From: Bryobacterales bacterium
GTDB taxonomy: Bacteria; Acidobacteriota; Terriglobia; Bryobacterales; UBA6623
Length of the DNA stretch: 57,458 nucleotides
Direction: 5' to 3'
NCBI GenBank assembly: GCA_026713545.1
Contig: JAPOOG010000121.1
Coordinates: 1-57,458, forward strand
Made by a program: the position numbers and the translations under genes. Every line of letters starts with the position of its first letter. The first letter of the stretch is position 1. Shown piece by piece: positions 635-13,646 of this stretch. The notes beneath the pieces were generated by a model, which worked only from the letters and a program-made list of their open reading frames with translations, was not told where the DNA came from and did no database searches.

Positions 635-727
635 ACGATAAACTGTACTAGTAGGTATCGTACTCAAACTCTTGCTCCAGCCCGCCGACACGTGGGTGCT
701 TCTCCATACCCGCTCCGACCCGTACCA

Positions 728-3700
728 ATGAGTATCAACCGAAGCAACCACGCCGAACCCGGTGGACCGATTGCCTATATGGCGGGCAACAGCGTCGCGT
801 CCAATCTGCTGATGCTCGGCATTGTTGCTGCGGGCCTCGTGTCGCTGACGGGCCTCGAGCAGGAAGCGTGGCCTACGGTGCCCTTCAACCAGTTCGAAAT
901 CTCCGTGCCGTTCCCCGGTGCAACGCCCGAAGAGGTGGAGGAGGCCATCGTCGTCAAGATCGAGGATGAGGTCAGGGGACTGGCGGACGTGAAGGCGGTC
1001 AGGTCCGTAGCGGCCCCGGGAATGGCGTCCGTCAGGGTCGAAGTCAACTCGGGTACGGACATGGGCGCGAAGAAGGATGAAATCGAGTCGGCGGTCGGGC
1101 GTATTCAGACGTTCCCGGGTGGAGCCGAGCGGCCCCAGATCCGGGAAATGACCAACGCCCAGAGCATGATGCGCCTCATCCTCTACGGCGACGTTCCCGA
1201 GCGCTCGCTGAAGGAGCTCGCCTACCGTATTGAGGACGATCTCGCTTCGCTCCCGAACGTGTCCCAGGTTGAGACCAGCGGTGTGCGCAACTACGAGATC
1301 TCGATCGAAGTGCCACTGCAGTGGCTGCGGGCTCTTGGGCTTACTCTGACCGAAGTCGCCAATACGATTCGCCGCGGATCCCTGGATCTGTCTGCGGGCA
1401 GCATCAATACCGAGCAGTCCCAGGTGCGGATTCGGACCCTCGGTCAGAGCTACGATCAGCAGGATTTCGAGGACATAGTCATCCTTGGCCGCGAAGACGG
1501 CACGGTGGTGCGCCTGGGTGATATTGCCGAGGTGCGCGATGGCTTCGAGGACTCAGCTTTGCTCATGCGGCACCAGGGCCACCCAGCCGTGTTCATCGAG
1601 GTTTCGCGAGCCGACGGCGAGAGGGTGATGGATGTGGCGCGCGCCGTTCGGGACCATGTTGCGAACGAGATAACGCCCTCGCTCCCCGATGGCGTGGGCA
1701 TCAACATCTGGAACGACGACTCTTCGATCTTCGCGGAGCGCGCCCTCATTCTCCTCAAGAATGGAGCCTTGGGGCTGTTGCTGGTCTTGATCGCGCTGGG
1801 CCTTTTTCTCGAAGTCCGGCTGGCGTTTTGGGTCGCCGTCGGTCTCGGCGTTTCCGGGATCGGCGCCTTGGCCGCCATGATGGTGTTCGACATCCCACTC
1901 CATGAGGTTTCGCTCTTCGCTTTCGTGCTCGCCATCGGAATCGTCGTGGACGATGCGATCGTCGTGTCCGAGCACATTCACCTGGAGCGAATGCGCGGCA
2001 CGCCGGGGGTTGTTGCGGCGATCCGGGGCACACGACGAATCAAGGTGCCACTGGTCTTCGCGGTGCTGACGACGATCGTGGCGTTCCTTCCGCTGCTCTT
2101 CATACCCGCGGGGTTCGGAGAGGTCTGGAAGGCACTGCCGATCATTGTCATTGCCACGCTGATGTTTTCGCTGGTCGAATCGCTGCTGGTACTGCCCAAC
2201 CATCTATCCCATCATCTGCATGGCCCGGATTGGGTGCCCAGTACGGGCATGGAACGATTCGTCGCCCGGATCCAGAATCGTGTCGATGCCTGGTTGAACA
2301 GCTTTGTACAGGGGCCTCTGGATCGCGGGATACAGCTCGCGACGGACTGGCCCGGGGTGACGGTCTCGTTGGCTGTCGCGCTGCTCATCCTGAGCATTTC
2401 CCTCCTTCCGGCCGGCATCGTCGCGACCACCTTCGCAACAGCGGTCGAAGGCGACTTTGCAATCGCCACCCTCGAGATGCCGGACGGAACGACCGCGCAG
2501 CAGACGTACGCAGTGGCACAACAACTGGAATCAGCCGGTCGCCGGGCCATGGAGCGGCTTTCCGAAGGCCGGCCCGAGGATGCGCCTCCTCTGCTGTCCG
2601 GAGTTACGGTCGTCGTCGGTCAGCGGTCGCGGATCGAAACCGGGGGCCTCAACCCCTCGCCCACCCTGAACCCGGAAGCCAATGTCGCCACCATCGAGTT
2701 CAAGCTCCTGAGCGCGCAGCAGCGGCGCATCACTTCGGGAGAAGTCGTGCAGGCATGGCGCGAGGAGGTGGGTGTCCTGCCTCATGTGCGCGCGGTCACC
2801 TTCATCAGCGAGATCTACACACTGGGCAACCCGGTCGAGGCCGCTCTGTCCCACCCGGATCCGGAACGCCTGGTCGAGATCGCATCTGCCACAGTCACTG
2901 GCCTGGGCGGAGTCGCAGGCGTCTTCGACATACGCTCTGATCACACTCGCGGTATCCCGGAAGTTCAGGTGGGATTGCTTCCCGAAGCGCGCACCCTCGG
3001 CCTCACGCTTGATGATCTTGCCTGGCAGACGAGAGCCGCCTTCTTTGGCGCGGAGGCCGTGCGGGTGCAGCGAGGACGTGACGAAGTTCGGGTTTATGTG
3101 CGGCTGCCCGAGGAGCAGCGTAATGCGATCACCGACGTCGAGAGCTACCGGCTCCGCACGCCAACCGGTGCCGACGTGCCGGTGAGCAGCGTGGCTTCGC
3201 TGAGTTTGGGCACATCGCCGCCGGCCATCCGGCGCCAGGATGGCCAGCGCATTATCACGGTTACCGCTGATGTGGATCCCAGTGTGATTTCCGCCGCGAC
3301 CGCCAATGACATTGTGGAGAACACTATCCTCGCGGAACTCATCGACGAAAACCCGGAACTCACTTACACCTTCGGAGGTGAACAACAGCAGCAGCTCGAC
3401 TCTTTGGGCGGTCTCTTTCGCGGATTCGTGATCGCGTTGCTCATGATCTTCGCGCTGCTGGCCATTCCGCTCCGCTCCTATACCAAACCGTTCATCATCA
3501 TGGCCATCATCCCGTTTGGGTTCATCGGCGTGATCCTGGGTCACTGGGTCCTGGGGGTAGCCTTGAGCGCGGAATCCTTTGTCGGGATATTCGGCCTCGC
3601 CGGCGTGGTGGTGAACGATTCGCTGGTGATGATCGATTTCACCGATCAGAAACTCAGGGAAGACATTCCGGTGCGAACCGCGATCATAGAGGGCGCGAAG

Positions 3701-3907
3701 GGTCGGTTTCGCCCGATCATGCTTACTTCCTTGACCACCTTCCTTGGCTTCACCCCCCTTATTCTCGAAGACGCCATTCAGGCGCAGTTCTTTGTTCCCT
3801 TCTCCGCCTCGATCGGCTGCGGCATCCTCTTCACCACGACCATCATCATGTTTCTGGTGCCCGCGCTTTCCTCGTTCCATCTGCGCCTGACCTCGGCGCG
3901 GGGCTGA
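728..3907 (+). CDS. RND-family efflux permease (AcrB/HAE1-like), copy 1
   Basis: Inner-membrane proton-driven RND permease of about 1059 residues, the normal length for the family. The first transmembrane helix follows a short N-terminal GGPIAYMAGN segment. The porter domain lies at roughly 40-330. TM4 carries the paired acidic residues of the proton relay (GIVVDDAIVV), as in AcrB. The C-terminal half repeats the fold and contains GVVVNDSLVMIDF and GRFRPIMLTSLTTFLG. I start at ATG 728 rather than further upstream because the second RND copy aligns from there (MNQND...GEPAGPIAF against MSINR...AEPGGPIAY). No good Shine-Dalgarno sequence is visible and an IS630 remnant ends about 90 bp upstream. 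The substrate cannot be read from sequence, but its position beside a sterol methyltransferase suggests lipid or sterol transport. No intact membrane fusion protein gene is present nearby. Confidence 0.9.
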   Translation: MSINRSNHAEPGGPIAYMAGNSVASNLLMLGIVAAGLVSLTGLEQEAWPTVPFNQFEISVPFPGATPEEVEEAIVVKIEDEVRGLADVKAVRSVAAPGMASVRVEVNSGTDMGAKKDEIESAVGRIQTFPGGAERPQIREMTNAQSMMRLILYGDVPERSLKELAYRIEDDLASLPNVSQVETSGVRNYEISIEVPLQWLRALGLTLTEVANTIRRGSLDLSAGSINTEQSQVRIRTLGQSYDQQDFEDIVILGREDGTVVRLGDIAEVRDGFEDSALLMRHQGHPAVFIEVSRADGERVMDVARAVRDHVANEITPSLPDGVGINIWNDDSSIFAERALILLKNGALGLLLVLIALGLFLEVRLAFWVAVGLGVSGIGALAAMMVFDIPLHEVSLFAFVLAIGIVVDDAIVVSEHIHLERMRGTPGVVAAIRGTRRIKVPLVFAVLTTIVAFLPLLFIPAGFGEVWKALPIIVIATLMFSLVESLLVLPNHLSHHLHGPDWVPSTGMERFVARIQNRVDAWLNSFVQGPLDRGIQLATDWPGVTVSLAVALLILSISLLPAGIVATTFATAVEGDFAIATLEMPDGTTAQQTYAVAQQLESAGRRAMERLSEGRPEDAPPLLSGVTVVVGQRSRIETGGLNPSPTLNPEANVATIEFKLLSAQQRRITSGEVVQAWREEVGVLPHVRAVTFISEIYTLGNPVEAALSHPDPERLVEIASATVTGLGGVAGVFDIRSDHTRGIPEVQVGLLPEARTLGLTLDDLAWQTRAAFFGAEAVRVQRGRDEVRVYVRLPEEQRNAITDVESYRLRTPTGADVPVSSVASLSLGTSPPAIRRQDGQRIITVTADVDPSVISAATANDIVENTILAELIDENPELTYTFGGEQQQQLDSLGGLFRGFVIALLMIFALLAIPLRSYTKPFIIMAIIPFGFIGVILGHWVLGVALSAESFVGIFGLAGVVVNDSLVMIDFTDQKLREDIPVRTAIIEGAKGRFRPIMLTSLTTFLGFTPLILEDAIQAQFFVPFSASIGCGILFTTTIIMFLVPALSSFHLRLTSARG

Positions 3908-5354: not shown

Positions 5355-6205
5355 TCGGAAAGTGCGTGCCGCTTTGACGGCGGCCGGATGTCCTCCGATG
5401 GCGGGACCCTGCTGCTGCGGGCCTGCGGGCCGTCGACCGGCACGTCGGCCTGACCCGGCATCTGGCAGCCTGCTTCGCTGATCACCGCAATCCCAGTCGC
5501 TGCGAGCATTCCCTGCGGAGCCTCCTCGTCCAGCGTCTGTTTGGCCTCGCGCTCGGCTACGAAGACATCGATGATCACGAACGCCTGCGCGAAGACAACC
5601 TGCTGGCGCTGGCCGTGGGCATCCGCTGGCCGGTTCCAGCACCCTCGACCGGCTCGAGCTGGGCACCCCCGAACAGGCCGGTCAGGACCGCTACAAGCGG
5701 ATCGTGGCCGACCACCAGCAGCACGACGCGCTGCTGGTGGAACTGTTCCTAGACAGCTATGCCGAGGCCCGAGGCGCCCGAGGAGATCGTGCTGGACGTG
5801 GACGCGACCGACGATCCGCTGCACGGTCGGCAGGAGGGACGGTTCTTCCACGGCTACTACGACTGCTATTGCTTTCTGCCGATTTATGTCACGTGTGGTG
5901 CGCACATCCTGTGCGGGCGGCTGCAGACGTCGAATCGGGATGCGGCGGACGAAGCGGTGGAGAAGATCGAGCGGATCGTGGAGCAGATACGGCAGCGCTG
6001 GCCACGTGTGCGGGGGACTCGGGCTTCTATCGCGACGAGCTGATGGCGTGGTGCGAGGGGCAGGCCGGGGTGGACTACGTGTTCGGATTGGCGCGGAACC
6101 GCCGGTTGCAGCCTGCGTTCGCGCAGCAAGCGGCGGGTGGTGGGCAAGGCGGAATGGCTGCCGGGCCAAGTGCGCGGGGACTCCCACGATTCGGAAAGGG
6201 GTATG
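5355..6205 (+). pseudogene. IS1380-family transposase remnant
   Basis: Consecutive pieces of one IS1380-type transposase occur in different plus frames: RFDGGRMSSDGGTLLLRAC near 5370, then EHSLRSLLVQRLFGLALGYED, LDRLELGTPEQAGQDRYKRIV, EEIVLDVDATDDPLHGRQEG near 5790, GDSGFYRDELMAWCEGQAG near 6020, and a final KRRVVGKAEWLPG. The frame changes between these blocks show several small insertions or deletions. The 3' third is missing. The element is dead. It lies exactly between the divergently oriented SMT and GPP34-P450 genes, so it splits what would be their shared upstream region. Confidence 0.75.
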
Positions 6206-6379
6206 CTACAAAGGGAGAGCTAAGCCATCTGTTCGCTCGCCCCGTTTCTCGATGGCTGGCGCATTGTCGGACGAGGGCAACGACATTTGTGTCGCAGAGG
6301 CTTGATGAGCGGTGTGCCCGGCTAACCGACTCCCAGCAAACGTCCCGGACTTGAGTCGTCCATTCCGGATTGGAGAATT

Positions 6380-8401
6380 ATGAGCGCGCCCACGCAGATC
6401 CCGATACGGCTTGCCGAAGAGCTGATCCTCCTGATGCTCAACGAACGGAGCGGCTTTCTGGAAATGGTTCCGGGTTGGGCTTTCTCCTGCGTTATGGCGG
6501 GTGCCGTAATCGCCGATCTTACACTGGAGGATCGGATCGACACCGATTTGAAAACGCTCTATCTGGTTGATCCCACTCCAACCGGAGACGACCTGCTCGA
6601 CCCGACGCTCAAGGAAATCGCCGAATCCCAGGAGACCGCGGACACGCAATACTGGATCGAACGCAACACGGGCCGTTCCGACGAAATCGTCATGTCCACG
6701 CTCGATCGCCTGGTGGAGAGGAAGATCCTGGACTACGAGAGCGGCGGGTTTTGGGGGCTCTCGCGCTCCGTTTCACGTTCTGGAACATACCAGACACACG
6801 ACTTGCAGATCCGCCAAGAAGCCAAAGCAAGAATCCTGAGCGTCATCTTGAACGACGTCATCCCGGACCCGCGCGATGCCATCCTCATTGCCTTGATGCA
6901 TACGTGCGGAGGTTTCAAGCTGCTGCTTGAGCCGGAAGACTATGAGGAGAAGCTGGAGCGCATCGAGACGATCGCCAAGCTGGATCTGGTAGGGCGGACG
7001 GTTGCCAGTGCGGTGAAGGATAGTACCGCGAAACCGAAGACCCGCCGTGTTCTTCAAACCAAACCCATTCCGAAGCTCCGAATCTTCGACGCCCTGCGAC
7101 AGCGTGACTTTCGCACAGGCAATATTCCAAAGGCGATGAACGGCATCTTCCGGAAGTACGGGCCGGTCGTCGAGCTTCCATTCAAAATGCGCAAGTCGAC
7201 GTTAGTGGCCTTGATGGGGCCGGACACCAATCAGTGGGTCAACAAGCACGGGCGGTTCTACCTTCGCTCGAAGGACTACATCCAGGATCTGGAACGCGTC
7301 TTCGGCGCTTCGCGAACCTTGCCGGGCCTGGATGGCGCTGATCACTACAAGATGCGCAAGTCTCTGCAAGGCGCCTATTCCCGTGCCGCCCTTACGCGAC
7401 GGCTACCGGAGTTGGTCCACCTCTGCAGACGGTCGCTGAGCCGATGGAGTGAAGGCGAAGTTTTCGGCGCAGCCGAGGCCTTCCAGAACCACGTCAGCAG
7501 TCAAGTCTCGCATCTGATGATCGGAGTGGATTGCAGCCATTACGTCGACGAACTTCTTGAATATGAACATCGCGCGTTGGTGACGCAAGTTCAGGGCGCA
7601 CTGCCGAAATTCATGCTGTCGACGCCAAAGATGAAACGCTATAGAAAGCGCGTCCGTGAACTCCATGAGGCGATAACCGCATCGCATACGCCGGCGCAGC
7701 GGAGGGGGAAGCCGCCGGATATTGCCGACGCAATCCTCGAACTCCACAGGAACGACCCGCAGTTCCTGCCGGAAACGGACATCACCTTCCCGTTTGTGGC
7801 GGCAATGGTGGCTAGCATCTATCTCGGGAGCGGGCTCGCCTTCGCCGTCTATAACATGGTTCGACACCCGGATCTGTACGAGAAGATTCATCGAGAAGCC
7901 GAGTTGCTTTTCGGTAACGGGCGTGAACCGGAAGCGAAGGATTTCAGCCTCGATAGCCTCGACGTCACTCACCGCCTCTGCATGGAGTCCGCGCGCGTGT
8001 ACCCCGTGATTCCCTGGCAGTTGCGAACGGTCATGAACGAGTGCATTGTGAGTGGCTTCCAAATACCGCCCAAGACGCATCTATTGATTTGCCAGACCGC
8101 AACGCACTACGCCGACGATCTGTTCAAAGACCCGCTGGAATTCGATATAGACCGTTATTTGCCGGATCGAGCCGAGCACACGAAGCCGGGCGCCTATGCT
8201 CCTTATGGCCTGGGCACGCACACTTGCCTTGGAAATCGGTGGGTGGAACTTCAGATGGCCGTCAATCTCCTGCTCGTTGCGTACCACCTGAAGCTGGAAG
8301 TGGTGCCCGTAAACTACAAAATCGGAATCAATCCGTTCCCCACATCCGCCCCCAACAAGAAGATGAAGTTCCGAGTCGCTGAAATCACGAATCCGATCTG
8401 A
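6380..8401 (+). CDS. GPP34 (GOLPH3-like) domain-cytochrome P450 fusion protein
   Basis: A 673-residue two-part protein. Residues about 8-205 resemble the GPP34 fold (RLAEELILLMLNERSG, VDPTPTGDDLLD, LDRLVERKILDY, DPRDAILIALMH); its eukaryotic member GOLPH3 binds phosphatidylinositol-4-phosphate on Golgi membranes. Residues about 225-670 form a cytochrome P450: ESAR (536-539) is the K-helix ExxR, and APYGLGTHTCLGNRW holds the heme-thiolate Cys616. The I-helix reads SIYLGSGLAFAVY, so the usual acid-threonine pair is replaced by Gly-Ser (483-484). The I-helix context and tail recall CYP51/CYP7-type enzymes, but I cannot assign a CYP family. GGAG four bases before ATG 6380 supports the start. It diverges from the sterol methyltransferase, so an oxidation of a sterol or related lipid at the membrane is the natural inference. 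No redox partner is encoded in the window. Confidence 0.8.
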   Translation: MSAPTQIPIRLAEELILLMLNERSGFLEMVPGWAFSCVMAGAVIADLTLEDRIDTDLKTLYLVDPTPTGDDLLDPTLKEIAESQETADTQYWIERNTGRSDEIVMSTLDRLVERKILDYESGGFWGLSRSVSRSGTYQTHDLQIRQEAKARILSVILNDVIPDPRDAILIALMHTCGGFKLLLEPEDYEEKLERIETIAKLDLVGRTVASAVKDSTAKPKTRRVLQTKPIPKLRIFDALRQRDFRTGNIPKAMNGIFRKYGPVVELPFKMRKSTLVALMGPDTNQWVNKHGRFYLRSKDYIQDLERVFGASRTLPGLDGADHYKMRKSLQGAYSRAALTRRLPELVHLCRRSLSRWSEGEVFGAAEAFQNHVSSQVSHLMIGVDCSHYVDELLEYEHRALVTQVQGALPKFMLSTPKMKRYRKRVRELHEAITASHTPAQRRGKPPDIADAILELHRNDPQFLPETDITFPFVAAMVASIYLGSGLAFAVYNMVRHPDLYEKIHREAELLFGNGREPEAKDFSLDSLDVTHRLCMESARVYPVIPWQLRTVMNECIVSGFQIPPKTHLLICQTATHYADDLFKDPLEFDIDRYLPDRAEHTKPGAYAPYGLGTHTCLGNRWVELQMAVNLLLVAYHLKLEVVPVNYKIGINPFPTSAPNKKMKFRVAEITNPI

Positions 8402-8554: not shown

Positions 8555-11500
8555 TCACATGGCTGCCGCTGCCCTGCGGCGTGGCGAGTTGGCACGCAGA
8601 TAGACAGTGATCAGCGCCGGCACGAGCAACATCAGGATCCCGGTCGTAATCATGATGCCGACCCCGAGAGAGGCGGCGAAGGGGACCATGAACTGTGCCT
8701 GGATCGCTCGTTCGAGAATAAGCGGCGTGAAGCCGAGAAAGGTGGTCAGCGAGGTCAACATGATGGGTCGGAAGCGTCCCTTGGCGCCTTCGATAATCGC
8801 TGTCTTCGTAGAGGCACCCTGCCTGCGCCGCTGGTCGATGAAGTCGATCATGACCAGCGAATCGTTGATGGTGACGCCGCTGAGCCCGAAGAAGCCCATG
8901 AACGATGCGGCACTCATGGGGACTCCCAACACGAGGTGTCCGAGGACGACGCCGATGAAGCCGAACGGAATGATGGACATCACGAGAAACGGTTTGATGT
9001 ATGACCCCAGGGAAAGAGCCAGCAGTGCGTAGATCGCGAGCATGGCGAGAAAGAAGCCGCGGTACAGCGCGTCCAGCGACTCCAACTGCTGCTGCTGTTC
9101 TCCTCCGAAAGAGAAAGTCAACTCAGGGTTGGTTGCGGTCAGTTGCGCGAGGATCGTATTCTCGAGGATGTCATTCGCTTGGCCGCCCGAAATCACATTC
9201 TCGTCCACATCCGCAGTCACCGTCACGACGCGCTGACCGTCCTGGCGCCGGATCGCCGGCGGTGACCTGCCCATTGTCATTGATGCCGCGTGGCTGAGCG
9301 GGACCTCCCCCCCCCCGACCGGGTGCGGATCAGGTAGCCTTCTACGTCCGTTATCGCATCGCGCTCGTCGTCAGGCAGTCTCGCGTAGACCCGCACCTCT
9401 TCCCGGTCGCGCTGCATTCTCAACGCCTCCACGCCGAAGAATGCCGCCCGCGCCTGCCGTGCCATCTCCTCGACCGTGAGGCCAAGTGTTCGCGCCTCCG
9501 GCCGCAACTCGAGCTGAATCTCCCCGACGCCCGGTGTATGATCGGACCGGACATCGAAGACGCCTGCCACGCTGCGAAGGCCTTCAACTACCGAGTCCGC
9601 GATTTCCACCAGGCGCTCCGGGTCCGGATGCGACAACACTGCTTCCACAGGACTGCCGAGATCGATGACCTCTCCGCTGAATTCGATCCCCCGAACGTAG
9701 GGAAGAATCCCCACCTCTTCCCGCCAGGCCTGCACGATCGCGATAGTGGACATGTTCCGTTGATGGGCGCTCGAGAGCTTGAATTCGATGCTGGCGATGT
9801 TTGCTTGCGGATTTTGGGTAGGAGTCGGGTCAAGCCCTCCTCCTTCGACACGGGGTCTCTGCCCCACGGTTACGTTCACGCCCGAGAGCAACGAGGAAGC
9901 ACTGTCCGGTCGTTCCCGATCCAGGCGTTCCAGAACCCGCCGTCCCGCACGCTCCAGTTCCATTGCCACTTCATAAGTCCGATCGGCCGGCGTCCCGTCC
10001 GGCATTTCAAGAGTGGCGGTGATGAAGTCGCCCTCCACGACGGGGGCGAAGGTAGTTGGGACAATACCTGCCGGTACCAGGGACAGGCTGACAACGAATA
10101 GGCCAACGATCCCCGCCACCACAATGCCGGGATGATTCGTCGAGAAGCGCAGCGCTCCATCCAGGGGGCCGTCCAGGAATCTGTTCAACCATCGATCAAC
10201 GAAGTCTCGGATCCACGCGAAGAAACGATCCACCAGGTTGGACGGCTTCCACTCCGGTCCGTGCAAGTGGGATAAGTGATTCGGCAGTATCAGGAGCGCT
10301 TCAACCAGCGAGATCAGCAGCATGCCGATGACGATCACGGGCAATGCGCTCCACACTTCTCCAATGCCCCCGGGGATGAAGAGCAGGGGCGTGAACGCCG
10401 CCACCGAAGTGAGAACCGCGAAGATCAACGCCTTCTTGATCCGTCGCGTGCCTCGAATCGCTGCGACGACTCCCGGCACTCCCCGATTGCGTTCGTAGTG
10501 GATGTGCTCGGCCACGACGATGGCATCATCGACGATGATGCCGATAGCCAGAACGAACGCGAACAGTGAAATGGTATTGATCGCAAGGTCGAGCGCCAGC
10601 ATCACCGCCAAAGCCCCGATGCCCGAGGTGATCAGGCCGGCGACGACCCATAGTGCGAGCCGTATCTCGAGAAACAGGGCCAGCGAGATGAACACCAGAA
10701 CGATGCCCATAAGACCGTTCCGGAGGAGGATGTCGGCCCGCTCCGAGTAGGTCTGAGAGTCGTCGTTCCAGATGGTGATCCCGACGCCATCGGGCAGGGA
10801 TGGAACAATCACGTTCGCGATGTGCTCGTGTACGGCTTCGGCAACATCCATCACCTGCTCGCCCTCGGCCCGGTAGACTTCCACGAAAACCGCCGGGCGA
10901 CCTTGGTGCCGCAGGATCAGGTCGGTATTCTGGAAGGCATCACGCACATCGGCGATATCTCCGAGGCGCACAACTGTGCCGTCTTTCCGGGCAATGACGA
11001 TGATCTCCTCGAAGTCGAGCTGGTCGTAGCTTTGTCCGATGGTCCGGACTCGCACCTGGGCGTCCTGCGTATCGATACTGCCGGCCGAAAGGTCGAGGGA
11101 ACTGCGGCGGACGGCATCCGCGACATCGTCGAGCGTCAGCCCGAGGGCTCGCAGACGGATGATCGGCACTTCGATCGAGATCTCATAGTTTCTCGTCCCG
11201 GTGGTCTCGACCTGGGACACGTTGGGCAGCGTCCCCAAGTCGTCTTCGATCTGGTGGGCCAACTCCTTCAGCGAGCGCTCGGGGATGTCGCCAAAGACGA
11301 TCAGACGGATCATGCTGGTGCGGTTGTCCATTTCCCTGAACTGCGGGCGCTCGGCTGCGCCGGGAAACGACTGAATGCGCCCGACCGCGGACTTGACCTC
11401 GTCCATGGCCTCGCCGATGTCCGCTCCGGTCTTCAATTCGACCCTCACGGATGCGAGTCCCGGGGCCGCCAAGGACTTGACCGCCTTGGCATCCTCCAAC

Positions 11501-11751
11501 GCCTCGACCTGCTCCTCGATCTTGACAACGATCGACTCCTCCACCTCCTCGGGTACGGCGCCGGGATAGACTACGGACACTTCGATGGTATTGAAGGGAA
11601 CGGTCGGCCAGGCTTGCCGCTCCAAGGCCCCCAGCGCCACCAGACCGGCCGCCAATATGACGACCATTGACAGATTGGCGGCAACGCGGTTGCTCGCCAT
11701 GAAGGCAATGGGACCTGCCGGCTCCCCCTGGTAGGCGTCGTTTTGATTCAT
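8555..11751 (-). pseudogene. RND-family efflux permease, copy 2, frameshifted at a G10 tract
   Basis: Paralogue of the RND permease at 728-3907, with long identical stretches (SLDLSAGSI, VRTIGQSYDQ, FALVLAIGI-type TM4 with VDDAIVV). The upstream frame runs from ATG 11751 to a stop near 9277. The downstream frame resumes near 9300 with EVPLSHAASMTMG and ends at 8555. The break lies in a run of ten G on the coding strand (9307-9316). With eight G (or eleven) the reading frame is continuous, and eight aligns residue for residue with copy 1 (RTRSGGEVPLSHAAS against RTPTGADVPVSSVAS). It is therefore a recent disruption, a phase-variable gene or a sequencing error. I start at MNQND rather than the ATG 18 nt upstream because it aligns with copy 1 and has AGG about 8 nt upstream. 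Confidence 0.85.
9307..9316. repeat. Homopolymer tract C10/G10 inside RND copy 2
   Basis: Ten consecutive C on the plus strand, G on the coding strand. The tract falls in the porter-domain coding region at exactly the point where the reading frame is lost. Poly-G tracts of this length are classical slipped-strand sites for phase variation, and are also a common sequencing error. Confidence 0.9.
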
Positions 11752-11754
11752 CGA

Positions 11755-12010
11755 CTGCACCTGCTGCATGTGCGGGAGGGCTGCGAGCCTAAGCGGCTGG
11801 AATCAGCTTGTACTTGAACTTCCATTCCTTTCAATTCGGTGGCCGGGTCGCCGGTGAAACCAGCCATACTACGTTCGCATGGCTCGAACGGTCCCTGGGA
11901 CTCCGATTCCACGACCGAAAACTCCTCTTCCCCGGTCCGTACGAAGCTTCCGGTCCACGAGTGTTTGCGCCGGCCGAACTCGATCCCGGAAGGAGGACAG
12001 CTTGGGGCTT
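11755..12010 (-). other. Possible membrane-fusion-protein (HlyD-like) C-terminal remnant
   Basis: The 350-bp gap between the outer membrane factor and RND copy 2 is where the periplasmic adaptor of a tripartite pump is often encoded. A minus-strand frame here reads FVRTGEEEFSVVESES, then GFTGDPATELKGMEV, then ADSSRLG. That spacing loosely resembles the C-terminal end of RND membrane fusion proteins (RTG..E..FVVE, GFTGD.ATEI..G, GQSRL). No start codon, N-terminus or lipoyl/hairpin region remains. The resemblance is weak and this stretch may simply be noncoding. Confidence 0.3.
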
Positions 12011-12102: not shown

Positions 12103-13569
12103 TCAGTTCAGATGCTCTTCGGCAAGGGTTGGCGGAAGGAGAGCTTCAGGGCTGCCCGCTGGGGCGCTCGGATCAAAACCGCCACCCAGCGCCAGATGGA
12201 GGTCGATCCGAGTATCGAGCAGGAGACGTTGCAGGGTCAGGATCTGACTCTTGGTGTTGAGGATTCGGCGGTCGGTCTGCAACACCAGCAGCATATCCCC
12301 CTTCCCATGGCGATAACGAAGCCGGGCCTGGTCCCGAACCACTCGGTCCTCCGCAATCGATGCTTCCAGCTTTCGCAGCCGATCTCGCAACAAGCTTTCT
12401 ACCGACAGCGCCGTCTCCACCTCGCCGAAGGCCTGCAGGACGGCGCCGGTATAGGTCTCCAGGGCCTCCAGGGAACGGCCTTGCGCGATTTCGACCTCAC
12501 GCCTGCGGCGTCCTCCTTCGAAAAGCGGCTGAACCAGGTTGCCCAACAAGCCCCAGACGGCGTATTCCCCATTCACCAGACTCAGCAGTGATTCGGTGGC
12601 CATTCCACCCGTTGTGGTGAGACTCAGTCGGGGATGAAGGGCCGCTCGAGCCTGGACAATGCCGGCGTCGGAGGCCAGCAGGCGCCGCTGTGCCGCGATG
12701 AGATCGGGTCGGCGGGTCAAGAGTTGAGAGGGAATACCGGCCGGAACAGCGGAGGAAATCCCGGGAAGGTTTTCCCGAACCCTCAACTCCCCTTCCGGAT
12801 AGCGCCCGACCAGGAGTTCCACTTGGCGGATGCTGCGTTCCAATTGCTCGCGTCGGAGATCGACGACAGATTCAGCGGCAGACAAGTCCGACAGCACGAG
12901 ATTTATTTCCAGGGCCGGTAAGAGACCTGCCTCGATACGGTTTCGTACCCACTGGGATGTCGTCTTGTAACTGGCAACGATCTCACGGGCCAAGGCCATT
13001 TGAAGACTTGCCTCCGAGCAGGCAAACCAGGCCTTGGCCGTCTGGCCCGCCAACGAATGCCTCGCTGCCGCAAGGTCCGCCGAATTCGCGGAGGCAAGCG
13101 CCCCGGCCCGAATCTCGCCGCTTCGGATTCTCCCCCAAACGTCCGCCTCCCAGTGGATGTCCAGGCCGACACCAAGGTTGGTAAAAGTGGCTTGCGGGAC
13201 CCGGCCCTCAAAACCCGGCAAGGGAAGCCCGATGAAATTTTGACGTTGGCGGCGGCCGTTGATTGCGAGTCCCAGTGCCGGCATCCGCTCGGCGCCGGCG
13301 ATCCGGGCTTCGATGAGAGCCGTCTCCAATCGGGCGGCGACAGCTCGGAGTTGGGGATTGTTGCTGAAGGTCTCTTCGATCAACGCATCCAATTGCGGGT
13401 CCTGAAACTGTTTCCACCAATGGATGTCCACCGTTCCCTCTACCGCCTCTCCCGCGTTCCACGACGGTGGAATCGGCAGGCTGGGTTGACGTTGGGGCGG
13501 CGCTGTGGGGCGAACGCACCCGTTTCCCCAAAGGAGCAGTGCCAACAGAAGAAGGTGAGTGGATCTCAT
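12103..13569 (-). CDS. RND outer membrane factor, NodT/OprM-type lipoprotein
   Basis: Outer-membrane channel of a tripartite efflux pump, about 488 residues as usual for the family. The N-terminus is a signal peptide with a Leu-rich core ending GNGC, a degenerate lipobox. Two OEP repeats follow: the first begins near WWKQFQDPQLDALI and the second near LLTRRPDLIAAQRRLLASDAGI. LLTRRPDL is a strong NodT/OprM hallmark. QPLFEGGRRRREVEIAQ occurs in the second half. I prefer ATG 13569 (MRSTHLLLL) to the ATG at 13584 because it gives a compact signal peptide. It is transcribed towards RND copy 2, so it was probably the first gene of an OMF-adaptor-RND operon whose later genes are now damaged. Confidence 0.9.
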   Translation of the reverse strand: MRSTHLLLLALLLWGNGCVRPTAPPQRQPSLPIPPSWNAGEAVEGTVDIHWWKQFQDPQLDALIEETFSNNPQLRAVAARLETALIEARIAGAERMPALGLAINGRRQRQNFIGLPLPGFEGRVPQATFTNLGVGLDIHWEADVWGRIRSGEIRAGALASANSADLAAARHSLAGQTAKAWFACSEASLQMALAREIVASYKTTSQWVRNRIEAGLLPALEINLVLSDLSAAESVVDLRREQLERSIRQVELLVGRYPEGELRVRENLPGISSAVPAGIPSQLLTRRPDLIAAQRRLLASDAGIVQARAALHPRLSLTTTGGMATESLLSLVNGEYAVWGLLGNLVQPLFEGGRRRREVEIAQGRSLEALETYTGAVLQAFGEVETALSVESLLRDRLRKLEASIAEDRVVRDQARLRYRHGKGDMLLVLQTDRRILNTKSQILTLQRLLLDTRIDLHLALGGGFDPSAPAGSPEALLPPTLAEEHLN

Positions 13570-13646
13570 CCGTAGTGTTCCCACGATGGAATCGGAGTTC
13601 TGGCCCCGGGTTCCTGGATCAGCGGTCCCTCATGATCCTCCAGATA

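Follow-up and report, generated by a model that had tools for sequence, protein, structure and literature searches.

The open reading frame at positions 6380–8401 of the DNA analysed here (the window, a stretch of 57,458 nucleotides from a Bryobacterales bacterium) encodes one true fusion protein, in which a GPP34 domain of the GOLPH3 type is followed by a cytochrome P450 (Table 1). The context suggests a sterol-tailoring system that is membrane-bound and has not been described before, and our main reading, which we hold at a probability of roughly one half, is that the fusion acts as the haem enzyme of a mobile cassette for tailoring and exporting sterols or steroids in sponge-type symbionts. 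A search of the open literature, most subscription journals lying outside our reach, turned up no paper on the fusion, on the series of I-helix variants described below or on the cassette; within that scope all three appear new, each part belonging to a known family. Many of the literature matches for 'Gpp34' concern an unrelated protein name.

Table 1. Features of the window discussed in the text, with positions counted from its first nucleotide.
Feature	Position	Strand	Basis or remark
RND (AcrB-type) efflux permease, part of the recurring cassette	692..3907	+	neighbour of the fusion
Sterol methyltransferase (SMT)-type protein, 381 aa	4120..5265	-	Sterol_MT_C 59 bits (cut-off 21.7); GWGESLHF, DIGCGIGG and IESTCH motifs
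DDE transposase remnant (DDE_Tnp_1_4), between SMT and fusion	5704..6354	+	not thought part of the function
GPP34-cytochrome P450 fusion protein, 673 aa	6380..8401	+	single uninterrupted ORF; full-length relatives
GPP34 (GOLPH3-type) domain, residues 11-213	6410..7018	+	Pfam 112 bits; fold Z 18.9 to GOLPH3
Loop P31-x-W33...C37 (residues 29-41), window-subtype; A40 at the GOLPH3 R90 position	6464..6502	+	profile alignment, conservation
Short beta-hairpin, residues 117-128, with F124-W125; aligned with GOLPH3 190-201; proposed membrane contact	6728..6763	+	alignment, model, conservation
Cytochrome P450 domain, residues 241-645	7100..8314	+	Pfam 121 bits; fold matches
I-helix A478-S-I-Y481-L482-G-S, remodelled, acid-alcohol pair gone	7811..7831	+	alignment, 50 fusions and 4 ordinary P450s
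ExxR motif E536-R539, kept	7985..7996	+	alignment
Haem-binding loop YGLGTHTCLG with C616; Y where F is usual	8204..8233	+	alignment
Second RND permease, C-terminal part of a gene broken into two frames	8555..9280	-	241 aa
Second RND permease, N-terminal piece	9277..11769	-	830 aa
Outer-membrane efflux protein (OEP, TolC-type)	12103..13584	-	neighbour of the fusion

A single reading frame joins GPP34 to a P450

Both halves of the protein scored well above the cut-offs of the Pfam profile search. GPP34 (PF05719) matched residues 11–213 with an E value of 5e-32 and 112 bits against a cut-off of 29.1 (115 bits when this half was searched alone), which excludes the background-level score that the first-pass annotation had named as refuting for the first 205 residues, and the P450 family (PF00067) matched residues 241–645 with an E value of 6.5e-35 and 121 bits against a cut-off of 22.8. 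The GPP34 half, folded alone with 22 relatives as the input alignment, gave a predicted structure (pLDDT 84, pTM 0.85) that matched the solved chains of GOLPH3 (Z 18.9 over 198 residues, 2.9 Å) and Vps74 (Z 17.6), the next and unrelated chain reaching only Z 3.7. The model of the full-length fusion had a pLDDT of 75, with low confidence at the haem loop and at residues ~298–317 and ~394–418, and its P450 half (residues 226–673) matched solved P450s at Z ~30. At this level CYP170A1, CYP46A1, BM3 and CYP51 were tied, and naming the substrate by fold was rejected for that reason. The fusion claimed in the first-pass annotation, which had proposed profile searches of both halves and structure prediction as checks, was thus borne out by both approaches. 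The home genome (5.6 Mb, 99% complete) gave one GPP34 match and one P450 match, and both were the fusion protein.

The fusion is conserved and has moved between phyla

Among 84,980 species genomes we found 20 fusion loci, 19 of them near-full-length and one truncated where its contig ends. The encoded relatives were 45–97% identical to the window protein, several lay on complete chromosomes, and the record titles of the carriers named Acidobacteriota, Rhodothermales, Gammaproteobacteria, Latescibacterota and Aminicenantes. dN/dS ranged from 0.05 to 0.33 for the GPP34 half and from 0.08 to 0.24 for the P450 half; on these ratios, purifying selection acts on both halves. The possibilities that a frameshift had joined two genes, raised in the first-pass annotation, or that the protein is a chimera were ruled out by the near-full-length relatives in 19 other records, the complete chromosomes and the low dN/dS. 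A second, shortened fusion (548 aa) was seen at locus L033:4718-6364 (+) of genome G007; its P450 lacks the ExxR region and it is probably decaying.

In maximum-likelihood trees, with outgroups limited to those GPP34 and P450 proteins fetched for the analysis, the GPP34 halves of the fusions formed one clade (95/92), as did the P450 halves (100/99). The two trees were congruent, which is consistent with one fusion event, and the fusion appears to have arisen once. The fusions of the window genome (Acidobacteriota) and of L007, a complete Rhodothermales chromosome, were 84% identical at the protein level and 87% at the DNA level (dS ~0.36–0.40), whereas the PrsA proteins of these genomes, taken as a housekeeping comparison, were 51% identical. 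This disparity indicates that the fusion has moved between phyla by horizontal transfer. Binning error as the source of the cross-phylum pattern was ruled out for the complete chromosomes L006 and L007.

GPP34 reading frames of fusion size (~550–740 aa) were present in 12 of 150 Bryobacterales genomes, all 12 within the window's own family (18 genomes); those of the own family that were read encoded GPP34-P450, whereas the GPP34 proteins read from the other family had no P450. Such frames also occurred in a few other acidobacterial genera, in ~20 of 244 Rhodothermales-class genomes and rarely in Gammaproteobacteria, counts for which length was mostly the sole criterion. The record codes RHO and COS fit Rhopaloeides odorabile and Coscinoderma matthewsi, sponges studied in PMC8163846 (we infer the link from code to species), and one carrier's record title contains the word 'sponge'. 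A check of the records coded 'jk18', 'p16', 'SB06' and 'CO36' gave no confirmation that they come from sponges. Judged from these record names and the one title, many carriers are apparently sponge symbionts.

The fusion recurs in a sterol-type setting

The first-pass annotation had placed the fusion beside a sterol methyltransferase, and an SMT-type gene indeed lies ~1.1 kb away. It is divergent from the fusion and a decayed transposase lies between them, so the two genes do not form an operon in the window. A decayed DDE_Tnp_1_4 element occupies the same position at L002:1234-2166, and hence in both genomes of the genus. The second RND permease of the window (8555-11769, minus strand) consists of overlapping reading frames of 830 and 241 aa, reflecting either a frameshift or decay.

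Across the loci, two subtypes of the fusion (distinguished by motif below) differed sharply in their neighbours. Within the fetched flanks, at least one of an RND permease, MFP, OEP, Rieske oxygenase or SMT lay near the fusion at 33 of 36 loci of the window subtype but at none of 11 canonical loci (Fisher p 2e-8, with kinship uncorrected); the three window-subtype loci that had none of these partners were two short contigs and L126. RND parts and the Rieske oxygenase were the commoner partners, and the recurrence beside SMT genes that had been proposed as a check was seen, though in a minority of fusion loci. The first-pass annotation had noted neither of these commoner partners, nor the altered I-helix or the transfer between phyla. 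At L033 an SMT shares 4 bases with the shortened fusion. The Rieske neighbour carries a KshA_C domain (96 bits), its best solved match is the 3-ketosteroid 9alpha-hydroxylase KshA (E 4e-25), and its best NCBIfam match is the sterol C-4 demethylase SdmA, far under the cut-off. Its CxH/CxxH and DxxHxxxxH metal sites were intact in 25/25 neighbour copies, and nine of ten distinct SMTs kept all three SMT motifs.

The same partners tracked the fusion at the level of whole genomes. The window contig has no Rieske gene, the home genome's KshA_C copy being on contig C134. Among the 150 Bryobacterales genomes, KshA_C Rieske genes were found in 10, all among the 11 window-subtype carriers (p 9e-15; ten of these carriers were read, and G042 was assigned by its ORF length and by a Rieske gene ~1.2 kb away), and SMTs in nine, all of them window-subtype carriers (p 7e-13). 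Within the own family the co-occurrence with carriers gave p 3e-4 for KshA_C and p 2e-3 for SMT, and none of these values is corrected for kinship. The sterol-type setting supposed for the fusion was thus upheld by recurring SMT and KshA_C Rieske partners.

Genes for making sterols accompany the fusion in a few carriers. At L126 it lies beside a squalene epoxidase, an oxidosqualene cyclase (TIGR03463, 727 bits) and an MMPL transporter that matches the sterol-sensing domain, and in the gammaproteobacterial carrier G014 a fused squalene epoxidase-oxidosqualene cyclase occurs together with a separate CYP51-like gene. At L035:4677-8069 (-) the epoxidase-cyclase fusion of a gammaproteobacterial carrier is a single 1130-aa protein adjoining a CYP51-like P450, and cyclase reading frames of similar length occur in G015-G017 and G042. 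De novo synthesis was rejected for the home genome, in which (at 99% completeness) no full-length squalene/oxidosqualene cyclase was found; any sterol substrate there would come from outside and would probably be derived from the host. SMTs of sponge symbionts methylate sterols in vitro, and the sterol clusters of those symbionts (SMT, sdmA/sdmB and oxidosqualene cyclase) resemble the cassette in its SMT, its Rieske-type oxygenase and, in some carriers, its sterol cyclase (PMC10070321). They differ in that the main text describing them makes no mention of GPP34, P450 or efflux, and in that most fusion carriers of the window's own family lack the epoxidase-cyclase pair.

Two other readings of the cassette bear on its substrate. 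Detoxification and efflux, in which toxic compounds of the host (sterols, terpenoids or other sponge chemicals) would be altered by the oxygenases and then pumped out, fits the RND pump parts present in most loci, a multidrug RND-family match of the window permease that falls below its cut-off, and a TetR-type regulator at L012. We think it unlikely, as the addition of carbon by an SMT is not typical of detoxifying enzymes, and as the squalene epoxidase and oxidosqualene cyclase beside one copy indicate synthesis. A non-sterol isoprenoid or lipid (a hopanoid, carotenoid or fatty acid), with repurposed SMT-like and KshA-like neighbours, is in our view about as unlikely. The best NCBIfam matches of the P450, all far under the cut-off, do include terpene oxygenases (pentalenene oxygenase at 94 bits), and a squalene-hopene-type cyclase is present, with the epoxidase-cyclase pair absent, in several carriers; however, the home genome also yielded no full-length hopene cyclase match, and Sterol_MT_C and KshA_C domains co-occur closely with the fusion. 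A substrate of sterol or steroid type is, in our judgement, likely.

The I-helix of the P450 half is remodelled

The window protein contains both motifs by which P450s are recognised, the haem loop FxxGxxxCxG (with Y for F) and ExxR. The haem cysteine (C616) was present in 50/50 fusions and ExxR in 49/50, the exception being L033, which has a deletion. In the alignment the ordinary monooxygenase I-helix, (A/G)Gx(D/E)T(T/S), was absent from the window protein, which has ASIYLGS instead. This difference separates the two subtypes: the canonical fusions (L028, L032, L100-L103, L110, L112, L114, L123 and L124) have an ordinary-type I-helix, such as GLDTTAS, whereas the window subtype shows ASIYLGS, ASVYV, TAMYM, TGQYL, AGHYL and, in four sequences, AGHYT, having lost the acid in all members and the threonine in nearly all. 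Two features of the GPP34 half, a fixed P-x-W loop (W33) and an F(W/Y) hairpin, likewise mark the window subtype, and the canonical subtype has neither. Along the tree the I-helix change looks stepwise, the acid giving way to Tyr (Y481) and then Thr to Leu, Val or Met. The graded series AGHYT, AGHYL, ASIYL is a natural experiment in the loss of the residues of oxygen activation.

Since the acid and threonine are lost but the haem cysteine and ExxR stay fixed, the ordinary proton relay is most likely not in use in the P450 half, and the altered I-helix suggests unusual haem chemistry. In CYP74, CYP8A1, CYP5A1, CYP152 and CYP107A1 the catalytic threonine or acid is altered or missing and the haem thiolate is kept; the fusion resembles these enzymes in this pattern. 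Candidate reactions are oxygen activation assisted by the substrate, the use of peroxide and isomerase chemistry of the type carried out by the P450s CYP74 and prostacyclin synthase. Alternatively, the P450 half could be a pseudoenzyme that binds a sterol as a sensor or carrier. The loss of the I-helix acid from all window-type members and of the threonine from nearly all would suit such a role, but the invariant haem cysteine, the near-invariant ExxR and the low dN/dS make it quite improbable, and we favour an active haem enzyme.

Among the best sequence and fold matches were CYP46A1 and the CYP51 of Methylococcus capsulatus, which share the P450 fold, the haem cysteine and ExxR with the fusion. 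The Methylococcus enzyme differs in its I-helix (AGxHT against ASIYLGS) and is only ~18% identical; the fusion lacks its ferredoxin domain and has GPP34 in front. CYP51 identity was rejected on the missing AGxHT, and the CYP51-like genes of the gammaproteobacterial carriers show AGQHTS. Like the fusion, CYP102/BM3 and the CYP51-ferredoxin protein have an extra domain in the same chain as the P450, but there the extra domain supplies electrons, whereas GPP34 is N-terminal and is not a redox domain.

Any membrane docking would probably not depend on PI4P

GOLPH3 binds the Golgi membrane through a PI4P pocket (W81, R90, R171 and R174) and a hydrophobic beta-hairpin (residues 190–201) (PMC13408441, PMC12494035). 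The GPP34 half shares with GOLPH3 and Vps74 the common fold described above, a profile match (E 7e-17) and a short hairpin at the membrane-inserting position. In that profile alignment the pocket residues correspond to P31, A40, D101 and V104 of the window protein, so that R90, R171 and R174 are all absent, and R90 is also missing from the other bacterial GPP34s aligned. The fusion further differs from GOLPH3 and Vps74 in its attached P450 and in that bacteria lack the COPI context. PI4P binding through a GOLPH3-type pocket is, with these residues not kept, unlikely, and PI4P docking was rejected. The bacterial hairpin is shorter than that of GOLPH3 but keeps the aromatic pair F124-W125, which makes docking by the hairpin the best remaining form of the membrane-docking idea; on this evidence we lean slightly towards PI4P-independent docking of the fusion in this way. 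The earlier suggestion that GPP34 docks the P450 onto a membrane therefore survives in part, its PI4P component having fallen with the pocket and the hairpin remaining plausible.

The same residues bear on the alternative that GPP34 is a protein-binding module, which would attach the P450 not to the bilayer but to another protein, such as the RND permease, the Rieske oxygenase or a protein that supplies electrons. GOLPH3 has an established role in binding the basic tails of Golgi enzymes as clients (PMC13408441, PMC12494035), the PI4P pocket is lost, and some gammaproteobacterial GPP34 proteins already carry a C-terminal, apparently membrane-spanning stretch; against this, the window subtype keeps the aromatic pair of the hairpin. 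We consider docking on a protein doubtful and prefer the hairpin. An established role for bacterial GPP34 proteins was not found in the open literature, and a GPP34 domain joined to an enzyme inside a lipid-type cassette offers a concrete handle on the role of the domain outside the Golgi.

Other arrangements of GPP34 were seen in Gammaproteobacteria. At L026:4229-5422 (-) and L029:4428-5609 (-), both in carriers, proteins of ~395 aa have GPP34 followed by apparent transmembrane helices and lie beside genes with CxxCH-type haem motifs, and at L119:7607-13135 of genome G527 three consecutive reading frames match GPP34, with no P450.

A possible function for the cassette

The reading to which we gave an even chance can be set out as a sequence of steps. 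The GPP34 half would hold the enzyme at the inner membrane by its short hydrophobic hairpin and not by PI4P; there the P450 half would work with the Rieske oxygenase, and with the SMT at loci that have one, to modify a sterol that most carriers would obtain from the host and a few would synthesise de novo; and the product would leave through an RND-MFP-OEP pump. The P450 reaction itself may be substrate-assisted or of the peroxide or isomerase type. What tells against this scheme is that Rieske and RND proteins also act on non-steroid substrates, that the fold matches name no substrate, that the SMT is a minority partner and in the window does not share an operon with the fusion, and that the window contig has no Rieske gene.

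A bolder version, speculative and in our view unlikely as a whole, is that a transferred sponge-symbiont cassette takes up host sterols, which a GPP34-anchored haem enzyme working without ordinary oxygen activation (for example, as a sterol peroxide or hydroperoxide isomerase) would alter together with the KshA-type oxygenase and the SMT before the product is exported. Some sponge sterols would then be partly bacterial, and bacterial GPP34 would be a PI4P-free anchor. The cassette bears on whether bacteria shape the unusual sterols of sponges, which are used as molecular fossils of early animals. An FAD amine-oxidase-type protein also recurs in the cassette, at L007:6432-7850, with similar proteins in L008, L010, L011, L016, L097, L098, L107 and L111.
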